44,690 nucleotides of DNA from Thermoleophilaceae bacterium (GTDB lineage Bacteria; Actinomycetota; Thermoleophilia; Solirubrobacterales; Thermoleophilaceae): contig JADGHQ010000013.1 in NCBI GenBank assembly GCA_019683805.1, positions 1-44,690 on the forward strand. The letters are read 5' to 3'. Below the pieces are notes generated by a model that was not told the origin of the DNA, did not search any database, and was given only the letters and a program-made list of their open reading frames with translations. Shown here one piece after another: positions 13,837 through 16,245 of the stretch (positions are counted from its first letter, which is position 1; each line of letters begins with the position of its first letter). The position numbers were made by a program, and so were the translations under genes.

Positions 13837-14594
13837 GGGACGGGGCCGAATCCGGCGGCCCGCAGGTAGTGCGCGCCCGCGCCCGAGCGCAGCCCCTCGA
13901 CGAAGCGGCGCGCCAGCCCGGCGGGGCTGGCGCCGACCGCCACGCCGGCGTCGTAGCGGATGGCGGGCTGCAGGGAGCGCGGCAGGGCGACGGTGTGGAC
14001 CTCTGCCCTGGCCGCGCGGGCGTCCGTGACGTAGACGATCCCCGCGTCCGCCGCGCCGCTCACGACCTTGGCGAGCACGCCCTTGACGTCCGGCTCCGAG
14101 CTCTTCACGTTCCGCAGCAGGGCGACCCGCTGCGGCTGGGGCAGGCGGGCGATCGCGTGGCGCGCGTACTTGCCGACCGGGACGCCGTCCGAGCCGAGCG
14201 CGACGACGACTCCGGGCCGCGCGAGGTCGGGCAGCGAGCGAACGGGCCCGGCCGGATCGGCGGCGATCGCGAGCCGGTTGCTCGCGAAGGGCTCGGGACG
14301 ATCGAGCAGGCCGGCGCGCGCCAGCTCTGCGGGGAGCACGGCGTCGGCGGAGAGGAACACGTCGGCCGGCACGCCCTGGCGGATCTGCGCGGCGAGCTCG
14401 TCCGAGCCGCCGAAGCGGACGCGCACCTCGACGTCGTGGTCGCGGCCGAACTGCCTGGCGTAGGCCGTGACGGGGTCGGAGAGGGACGCGGCGGCGGCGA
14501 CGTCGATCCGGTCGGGCCCGCCGGCGGAGCTGCTGCCGCCGCAGCCAGAGGCGAGCGCGGCGCACAGCGCGACGGCCGCGGCGAGGCGCCTCAT
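13833..14594 (-). CDS. modA: Molybdate-binding lipoprotein
   Basis: 253 residues from an ATG at 14594. The N terminus is a lipoprotein signal (MRRLAAAVALCAALASGC) with lipobox LASGC and lipidated Cys18. The mature protein begins IDVAAAASLSDPVTAYARQF, the usual ModA opening whose Ser residues bind the oxyanion. FGGSDELAAQIRQGVPADVFLSAD, GPVRSLPDLARPGVVVALGS and AADAGIVYVTDA are further family signatures. It captures molybdate or tungstate outside the membrane for ModBC. The start overlaps the regulator's TGA (ATGA, 14591-14594) and the stop overlaps modB. Confidence 0.95.
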   Translation of the reverse strand: MRRLAAAVALCAALASGCGGSSSAGGPDRIDVAAAASLSDPVTAYARQFGRDHDVEVRVRFGGSDELAAQIRQGVPADVFLSADAVLPAELARAGLLDRPEPFASNRLAIAADPAGPVRSLPDLARPGVVVALGSDGVPVGKYARHAIARLPQPQRVALLRNVKSSEPDVKGVLAKVVSGAADAGIVYVTDARAARAEVHTVALPRSLQPAIRYDAGVAVGASPAGLARRFVEGLRSGAGAHYLRAAGFGPVP

Positions 14595-14998
14595 GCGCCG
14601 CGCTCCACCATCACCGAGGTGGCCTTGACCGTCGCGGTGGCCGGCACGCCCGGCGCCAGCCCGAGGTCGTCGACGGCGTCGCGCGTGATCGCGGCGATCA
14701 CGCGGTGCGGCCCCGCCTCGATCTCGACGAGAGCCATCACCCCGTCCACCTCGACCGAGCGGACCACGCCGGGGAAGCGGTTGCGCGCCGAGAGCGAGTC
14801 GCCGGGGCGCGCGCGGTCGGGGCGCTGCGAGAGCCGCTCGACCTCCGAGCGCGGCACGCGGCGGCGGTTCGCCGAGTCGCGGATCGTGGTGAGCCTGCCG
14901 GCCCGCTCCCAGCGGCGGAGCGTGTCGGGGCTCACACCGATCGCGCGCGCCGCCTCGCCGATCGTCAAGCCGTCGCTTTGCGGCATCTGCATAAGCAT
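14591..14998 (-). CDS. HTH-Mop fusion: molybdate-responsive transcriptional regulator
   Basis: 135 residues. Residues ~10-57 are a MerR/excisionase-type winged HTH (LTIGEAARAIGVSPDTLRRWERAGRLTTIRDSANRRRVPRSEVERL). Residues ~70-132 are a Mop/TOBE molybdate-binding domain (SARNRFPGVVRSVEVDGVMALVEIEAG... ITRDAVDDLGLAPG). It is the first gene of the operon and overlaps modA by ATGA. I infer that it senses intracellular oxyanion and controls its own operon, as ModE does elsewhere with a different architecture. Starts at 14998, 14992 and 14986 are all in frame (M-L-M-Q-M-P) with no clear SD, so the exact start is open. The ATG cluster itself reads TATGCAATGCTTATGCA, an AT-rich repeat that could be an operator. 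Confidence 0.85.
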   Translation of the reverse strand: MLMQMPQSDGLTIGEAARAIGVSPDTLRRWERAGRLTTIRDSANRRRVPRSEVERLSQRPDRARPGDSLSARNRFPGVVRSVEVDGVMALVEIEAGPHRVIAAITRDAVDDLGLAPGVPATATVKATSVMVERGA

Positions 14999-15079: not shown

Positions 15080-15098
15080 TATACCCCTCTGGGGTATA
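15080..15098. promoter_or_regulatory. CsoR/RcnR-type operator overlapping the DUF4396 gene promoter
   Basis: A perfect 19-base palindrome, TATACCCC-TCT-GGGGTATA. The layout (AT flanks, a C-run and G-run around a short centre) is the known pattern for CsoR/RcnR/FrmR-family metal and stress repressors. The right arm runs into TATAAA (15095-15100), a good -10 for the plus-strand gene starting at 15143, so repressor binding would block RNA polymerase. It lies in the 144-base divergent gap between the mod regulator and the DUF4396 gene. No csoR-like gene is in the window. Confidence 0.7.
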
Positions 15099-15142
15099 AA
15101 CTGGAGTGCGTGACTCCCACCCGCGCACGCCGACAGGACGCA

Positions 15143-15718
15143 ATGCGGCACGAGCACGAGCGCCACCGCCACGACCTCCCCGCTCGAGGGGGCGCGCTCA
15201 GCGCGCTCGCGCTGAGCGCCACGCTCCACTGCCTGACAGGCTGCGCGCTCGGCGAGGTCGCCGGCATGGTGCTCGGCACCGCGTTCGGGCTCTCGAGCTG
15301 GGCCACGGTCGGGCTCGCGGTCGTGCTCGCGTTCCTGTTCGGCTACACGCTCACGAGCCTGCCGCTCCTGCGCGCGGGCATGGCGCTCGGCGCGGTCGTC
15401 CCGATCGCGCTTGCCACGGACACCGTGAGCATCGCGATCATGGAGCTGGTCGACAACGCGACGATCGTCGCCATCCCGGGCGCGCTCGACGCCGGGCTCG
15501 GCGATCTGCTCTTCTGGGGCGGCCTCGCCTTCTCGCTCGCGCTCGCCGGAGCAGCGGCGTTCCCGGCGAACCGCTGGCTGATAGCGCATGGACGGGGCCA
15601 CGCCGTCGCGCACGAGCACGGGGCGCACGGCGGTCCGCCGACGGCCGTGGTCGCGGCCGCGGCCGCGGGCGCCGGGCTCTTCGGCGCGGCCGTGCTGCTG
15701 GCCGAGGCGCTCGGCTGA
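15143..15718 (+). CDS. DUF4396-type integral membrane protein with His-rich termini
   Basis: 191 residues from ATG 15143 (AGGA four bases upstream); GTG 15110 is an in-frame alternative. The N terminus is MRHEHERHRHDLP, with five His in 10 residues. Hydrophobic helices follow at roughly 18-48, 53-92, 94-115, 122-142 and 166-190. A Cys/His cluster HCLTGC (29-34) sits in the first helix. A second His-rich loop, HGRGHAVAHEHGAHGG, precedes the last helix. The pattern ATLHCLTGCxxGE...PLLRAGM...VDNA...GALDAGLGDxLFWGxLA...PxNRWLIAxGRGHAVxH matches the DUF4396 family as I know it. Metal handling is inferred from the CsoR-type operator at its promoter and the His loops. The transport direction and metal are unknown. 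Confidence 0.8.
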   Translation: MRHEHERHRHDLPARGGALSALALSATLHCLTGCALGEVAGMVLGTAFGLSSWATVGLAVVLAFLFGYTLTSLPLLRAGMALGAVVPIALATDTVSIAIMELVDNATIVAIPGALDAGLGDLLFWGGLAFSLALAGAAAFPANRWLIAHGRGHAVAHEHGAHGGPPTAVVAAAAAGAGLFGAAVLLAEALG

Positions 15719-15798: not shown

Positions 15799-15804
15799 AT
15801 CGGA

Positions 15805-15877
<73 letters not shown>

Positions 15878-16245
15878 AAGCTCGTGGTCTCTCGCCAGTT
15901 TATACGGCTTCGCTGGTTGTTCCTTGCGCCCGCCAGCCGGAGGTGGATCGCGGACTTGCCTGCGGCCATCGCGATCGTGGGCCGCGAAGCAGAGTGACGT
16001 GGTGGTCGTGCGCACGTACGCCGCGCGCAGGACGCGGCCGGGCATCAGGCGCACCACCCCTTGCACTGCACGCGCATGAGCCGCTTGCGCAGCGCGAAGA
16101 TCATGTCGCAGCGCCCACCCTCGAAAACGGGTCGGCACTAGTTCTTATGTCGAATGGAACGGGCTTCCGGCGCGCCGGCGCGGCGCAACCTCCGCCGCGC
16201 CCCAACCCGCCTTGGGCCGGGCGCCGCCGCGCCCCGCGCGCGGGC
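15878..16245. other. 368-base stretch without a confident gene, between tRNA-Ala and rsfS
   Basis: The first ~30 bases hold the probable tRNA promoter: a TATAAA (minus strand, 15904-15899) sits 21 bases before the tRNA. A short AT-richer patch (16128-16160) may be another promoter. Open frames here lack SD sites and domain character. The last ~75 bases before rsfS are extremely G/C-rich. I see no clear structured RNA. Confidence 0.5.
15899..15904 (-). promoter_or_regulatory. Candidate -10 box for tRNA-Ala
   Basis: TATAAA on the minus strand, 21 bases before the tRNA 5' end, in an otherwise GC-rich background. No convincing -35 hexamer is seen at the usual spacing. Confidence 0.4.

Follow-up and report, generated by a model that had tools for sequence, protein, structure and literature searches.

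A putative CsoR operator upstream of a DUF4396 membrane protein gene in a Thermoleophilaceae bacterium suggests a role of the family in copper handling

The DUF4396 gene located in the 44,690-nt stretch of Thermoleophilaceae DNA analysed here (the window) follows a palindrome that matches the CsoR operator, and its product is probably a copper-detoxification component controlled by CsoR and Cu(I). The predicted control of the gene by CsoR in response to Cu(I) is, on comparative evidence, almost certain, and a direct involvement of DUF4396 in copper handling is highly likely; a specific function in transport or export is given slightly less than an even chance. Sequence comparison establishes the identity of the operator, its conservation, the type of regulator, the copper neighbourhood of the gene and a second copper switch in Proteobacteria. 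The metal-responsive role that a preliminary description of this DNA had proposed for DUF4396 is supported and narrows to Cu(I). The widespread membrane protein family DUF4396 gains a function area, copper.

Operator, promoter and host regulator

The palindrome TATACCCC-TCT-GGGGTATA (Table 1) is present exactly as first described, with two perfect 8-base arms flanking the 3-base spacer TCT, itself non-palindromic. It is the sole match in the window at up to 3 mismatches and exceeds chance expectation, 100 shuffles having returned 0 matches. In S. lividans the CsoR operator consensus reads ATATACCCCTNAGGGGTATAT; binding requires its TAC-N9-GTA repeat (PMC3902906). The palindrome contains TAC-CCCTCTGGG-GTA and thus displays both the TAC-N9-GTA repeat and the G-tracts of a type-2 CsoR operator. 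The promoter overlap of such operators is also predicted from the sequence, as the putative -10 element TATAAA runs into the right arm, in agreement with the overlap originally noted; no consensus -35 is present at the DUF4396 promoter. By sequence identity and conservation the palindrome is a putative CsoR operator, to which the host CsoR would bind. The earlier assignment to the CsoR/RcnR/FrmR type of operator is borne out by the match to the published type-2 CsoR operator. Neither of the two results named in advance as refuting it was obtained: the genome encodes a CsoR homologue, and orthologues retain the palindrome upstream.

The product of the gene matches PF14342 with 122.7 bits (Pfam cut-off 27) and is the only PF14342 copy of the host genome (2.56 Mb, 134 contigs, 95% complete). 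Just past the end of the DUF4396 gene is a tRNA-Ala (ggc) gene (15802-15878, minus strand), the one tRNA detected in the window. The window showed no CsoR-type gene, and the genome encodes exactly one CsoR-family protein (PF02583), on another contig (C17; 102.8 bits). The regulator would act in trans, as the preliminary description had anticipated, and its term "orphan" holds for the operator only in this sense, since the genome does encode CsoR. The host CsoR displays Cys-His-Cys at the X-Y-Z ligand positions: C57, H82 and C86, identified by alignment with 4m1p and 4adz, are 25 and 4 positions apart, as are the Cu(I) ligands in known CsoR proteins. Its best PDB matches are CsoR of Geobacillus and of S. 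lividans. It carries RLSR in helix 1, which corresponds to the RLxR DNA-contact motif as defined for CsoR (PMC3902906).

When the entire genome was scanned for the palindrome alongside csoR/rcnR homologues, ATACCCC-N3-GGGGTAT at up to one mismatch returned two sites, a perfect one at the DUF4396 promoter and one with a single mismatch at the promoter of csoR itself; the reversed-pattern control returned 0 sites over the host genome. At both copies the start codon lies 12 nt past this 17-mer. The in-frame GTG at 15110 is the more likely start of DUF4396 compared with the ATG at 15143, because it occupies the same register as the csoR ATG, and in relatives the distance from the palindrome to the DUF4396 start codon is often 9-20 nt. 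The host copZ-YtkA-copA operon lies on a contig that begins inside copZ, its promoter being cut off by the contig end.

Table 1. Features of the DUF4396 locus, in window coordinates.
Feature	Position	Strand	Basis and remarks
MerR-HTH + TOBE protein (ModE-like), heads molybdate transport cluster	14591..14992	-	Divergent from DUF4396; rejected as palindrome owner
Putative CsoR type-2 operator, palindrome	15080..15098	.	Sequence, genome scan, published TAC-N9-GTA, conservation in relatives
Putative -10 element TATAAA, overlapping operator right arm	15095..15100	+	Sequence; TATAAT/TATACT at same place in many relatives
DUF4396 (PF14342) membrane protein gene	15110..15718	+	Probable GTG 15110 start, very short or no leader; ATG 15143 alternative
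His-rich N terminus MRHEHERHRHD, predicted cytoplasmic	15143..15175	+	Sequence; charge distribution, 69 relatives
HCLTGC in TM1	15227..15244	+	Alignment; H29, C30, C34 invariant in 69 relatives
MELVD in TM3	15440..15454	+	Alignment; M100, E101 invariant, D104 in 68/69
Predicted cytoplasmic His loop GHAVAHEHGAH	15596..15628	+	Sequence, alignment; H153, H157 in 68/69

Conservation of the operator in Actinobacteria

PF14342 was found in 121 of 399 genomes sampled from the same class, whose related named records are Thermoleophilia. A total of 100 DUF4396 loci were taken from the class, and sites were counted at the 98 that include 150 nt or more of upstream sequence. The palindrome is conserved in these relatives. 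ATACCCC-N3-GGGGTAT occurs within 400 nt upstream of the domain at 38/98 loci with up to one mismatch and at 46/98 with up to two, compared with 0/98 for the reversed-sequence control. Spacings of 0-8 were permitted, and all sites with at most one mismatch upstream of DUF4396 have a spacing of 3. Their density is approximately 58 times higher upstream of DUF4396 (41 in 39 kb) than elsewhere in the same loci (18 in 995 kb), and several of these 18 are located farther upstream of DUF4396, heading csoR or copA operons. The 38 class sites comprise 22 different spacers between near-invariant arms, and the 20 nt on each side are almost without information; selection has therefore acted on the palindrome itself, beyond mere relatedness. 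Of 39 other actinobacterial DUF4396 loci, from genera such as Mycobacterium, Streptomyces, Nocardioides, Lentzea and Terrabacter, 26 likewise contain the palindrome. One further record, CAMCUD010000029.1, is titled as a Bifidobacterium breve MAG, a name that looks wrong, and holds a DUF4396 locus (L146) 73% identical to the window protein.

Perfect palindromes are found in 74 of the 399 class genomes, the reversed pattern being unmatched in the genomes listed, and 25 of 30 loci around them hold CsoR, CopA or DUF4396 within approximately 1.5 kb. Thus, the palindrome is a copper-regulon operator in this class. Among the subfamily-1 loci of the class (n = 88) the site is directly upstream at 37 and 0.4-4 kb upstream at 11; the remaining 40 have no recognisable operator within reach, which counts against the copper-control reading. 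A second PF14342 subfamily (HCGAGC...GD; L043, L058, L085, L111, L117, L125, L127 and L134) is mostly without a CsoR operator and may respond to a different signal. CsoR itself is common, so that its presence is not significantly tied to DUF4396 over the 399 genomes (99/121 with DUF4396 vs 205/278 without, p = 0.10), and this co-occurrence was dropped as evidence. CsoR was not found in 3 of the 38 operator genomes, perhaps through incompleteness.

CueR boxes in Proteobacteria

No CsoR site with up to one mismatch occurs in 17 proteobacterial DUF4396 loci. The element cTTGACCTTnCC-...-GGAAGGT, which is the published CueR/HmrR signal ACCTTCCC-(5)-TGGAAGGT (PMC1526738), lies within 350 nt upstream of DUF4396 at 7/16 proteobacterial loci, and in three Microvirga loci the box is positioned at about -660 to -686. 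Its density is 7 in 5.6 kb upstream of DUF4396 vs 9 in 185 kb elsewhere, the latter including the three Microvirga boxes, and the reversed control returned 0. CueR scores over its cut-off in 14/16 of the genomes concerned, and 7/16 loci combine the box ACCTTCC-N7-GGAAGGT with a genomic CueR. Both CsoR and CueR sense Cu(I) without being related to each other, and the factor common to the two is therefore the controlled protein, DUF4396. That two unrelated sensors of Cu(I) control the gene in different phyla argues strongly for copper handling by DUF4396 itself.

Copper genes around DUF4396 and fused domains

The neighbours of DUF4396 in the 100 class loci include CsoR (29), CopA (22) and a YtkA-like gene (15). 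Gene orders include copA-csoR-DUF4396 (L068, L120, L123, L128), csoR-DUF4396 (L081, L084, L095, L102) and YtkA-copA-DUF4396 (L121, L139). Among 88 scanned adjacent genes (<700 aa) PF02583 is the commonest family (7), followed by DUF305 (3, level with two others) and HMA (2); beyond these, most neighbouring genes occur only once, and the DUF4396 gene thus usually stands alone. The Kineococcus plasmid pKRAD01 (L253) carries csoR, an HMA protein, a P-type ATPase and DUF4396 in this order; term searches of a Kineococcus copper proteomics paper found no mention of this csoR cluster. Proteins of the DUF305 family and an F510_1955-family glycosylhydrolase recur near DUF4396 on pKRAD01, on Streptomyces pFRL6 (L252) and at L251, with a CehA/McbA metallohydrolase occurring once among the three; all are possible further copper-linked genes.

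DUF4396 is also fused to other domains. At L072 (G231:C127:24949-25362) a divergent DUF4396 domain (HCIAGD variant) is joined to three multicopper-oxidase domains, and a CsoR site with one mismatch lies upstream of the fusion gene. At L055, which L090 and L097 resemble, a fifth helix links DUF4396 to a YtkA-like domain (a weak match) with HLHP and HVHP motifs; in the host genome a domain of this type is a separate gene before copA (G000:C98).

A copper ATPase scores over the cut-off in 30 of the 38 operator-bearing genomes. Three contain no P-type ATPase of any kind (G047, 96% complete; G057, 93%; G227, 85%), and four contain only P-type ATPases in which no CPx motif was found (G148, 92% complete; G180; G264; G394, 75%). 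The presence of operator and DUF4396 without a copper ATPase in some genomes is suggestive, a hint and not proof, because the seven cases compare with approximately 3.5 expected from genome incompleteness alone.

Architecture of DUF4396

The AlphaFold2 model (pLDDT 92.7) comprises helices 16-47, 52-77, 82-110, 122-148 and 167-190. All the protein features of the preliminary description were found: the His-rich N terminus, the second His-rich loop and HCLTGC in TM1. Residues H29, C30, C34, E38, M100 and E101 are invariant over 69 relatives. In the model, C30, C34 and E38 are located midway along TM1, whereas TM3 contains M100, E101 and D104. Across divergent subfamilies the fixed positions are HC..G...G and a few others. 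Lys and Arg average 0.83 per sequence in the N terminus, 0.94 in loop 2-3 and 2.22 in loop 4-5, and approximately 0 in loops 1-2 and 3-4. By the positive-inside rule the N terminus is predicted to lie inside together with loops 2-3 and 4-5, and loops 1-2 and 3-4 to be exposed on the outer side; both His-rich stretches would therefore face the cytoplasm. A fold search of the model against the PDB gave no match at E <= 0.001. The best, a TRIC cation channel (Z 7.8, 3.7 A over 109 residues), is at a level reached by unrelated helical bundles, and a PDB sequence search with the PF14342 family profile returned chance-level matches only. The solved folds thus provide no structural support for transport.

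Proposed role of DUF4396 and alternative explanations

At low cytosolic Cu(I) the sole host CsoR would occupy the operator and block the overlapping promoter. Rising Cu(I) would release CsoR and allow DUF4396 to be expressed from an mRNA with almost no leader, at the same time as CsoR and probably also the copZ-YtkA-copA operon. The induced protein, predicted to be an N-in membrane protein of four to five helices, would most likely serve as a copper-detoxification component. The His-rich tail and loop on its cytoplasmic side may collect Cu(I), which H29, C30, C34 and E38 of TM1 and M100, E101 and D104 of TM3 would bind within the membrane and hand outwards, in parallel with CopA or supporting it. 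If DUF4396 moves Cu(I), it would be a new kind of copper transporter. More tentatively, the family may form a new class of small Cu(I) transporters unlike the known copper pumps, placed independently under CsoR and CueR and providing the sole CsoR-controlled copper exit where there is no copper ATPase.

The main rival to transport places DUF4396 in the same copper regulon as a membrane-bound Cu(I) chaperone or buffer that hands the metal to CopA or to extracytoplasmic multicopper oxidases, a serious possibility with less than an even chance. The fusions to multicopper oxidase and YtkA-like domains, the frequent position of DUF4396 beside copA and copZ and the two cytoplasmic His-rich segments all fit a chaperone. 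However, nine invariant or near-invariant candidate ligands, several of them within TM1 and TM3, exceed what a tether needs, and in at least 6 of the 38 operator genomes no heavy-metal P-type ATPase was found that a chaperone could serve (incompleteness predicts approximately 3.5).

That DUF4396 imports copper, or helps to assemble copper enzymes and is simply co-regulated, appears improbable. The direction of movement is unreadable from a sequence and one fusion does involve a copper enzyme domain, but both CsoR and CueR turn on their targets when copper is in excess, a condition under which import would be harmful (PMC3902906, PMC1526738).

All these readings take Cu(I) as the signal. The list of effectors given in the preliminary description, Cu(I), Ni/Co, formaldehyde and persulfide, keeps Cu(I) and loses the others on account of the C-H-C ligands, the copper-type neighbours and the proteobacterial CueR boxes. 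RcnR has a His at the last ligand position, and CstR has two Cys without a His between them. The sole family member of the host displays neither set, since it carries C86 at the last position and H82 between the two Cys. RASK replaces RLxR in RcnR (PMC3902906), whereas the host protein has RLSR and scores 40.5 bits against an NCBIfam RcnR cut-off of 138. The Pro2 and Cys35 pair is the hallmark of FrmR (PMC5016687); the host protein begins with MAST, does not display this pair and scores 39.2 bits against a cut-off of 133. Moreover, 27 of the 29 CsoR proteins adjoining DUF4396 in relatives are C-H-C. It is thus very improbable that the regulator senses Ni/Co, formaldehyde or persulfide and that DUF4396 answers such a signal, even though the DNA-binding family of CsoR also includes RcnR, FrmR and CstR (PMC5016687).

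Ownership of the palindrome by the divergent MerR-HTH/TOBE gene, for the governing of molybdate genes, has a negligible probability: that gene begins approximately 90 bp away in the opposite orientation, but neither it nor modA is found near DUF4396 in any of 100 relatives, where the palindrome stays with DUF4396, and the other copy of the palindrome in the genome is at csoR.

Comparison with known systems

In a search of the open-access literature one paper was found to name DUF4396, as a gene flanking a metal-resistance cluster and with no function assigned (PMC7760498), and none to name PF14342. The system resembles the CsoR regulon of S. lividans (csoR, copZA1, copZA2; PMC3902906), with which it shares the type-2 operator sequence, a C-H-C Cu(I) repressor and a csoR gene with its own operator. 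In contrast, the known targets there are csoR and copZ-copA, whereas here a lone DUF4396 gene is placed under the operator. The proteobacterial DUF4396 genes resemble the CueR/HmrR regulon in bearing ACCTTCC-N7-GGAAGGT just after TTG; in the passages of PMC1526738 that were consulted, no DUF4396 protein is named among the regulon members. The sensor is unrelated to CsoR and works as an activator. The DUF2318 and DsbD-like proteins of gut Firmicutes (PMC4938975) are likewise functionally uncharacterised membrane proteins for which comparative genomics suggested control by CsoR, but they are other families and no relation to DUF4396 is suggested. CopA, the P1B-type copper ATPase, is Cu-induced, as DUF4396 is predicted to be, and often shares an operon or regulon with DUF4396, which, unlike CopA, displays no ATPase, HMA or CPC motif and spans four to five helices. 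Both the operator and its repressor belong to a known type; what appears to be new is the assignment of the DUF4396 family to copper and its dual control by CsoR and CueR.
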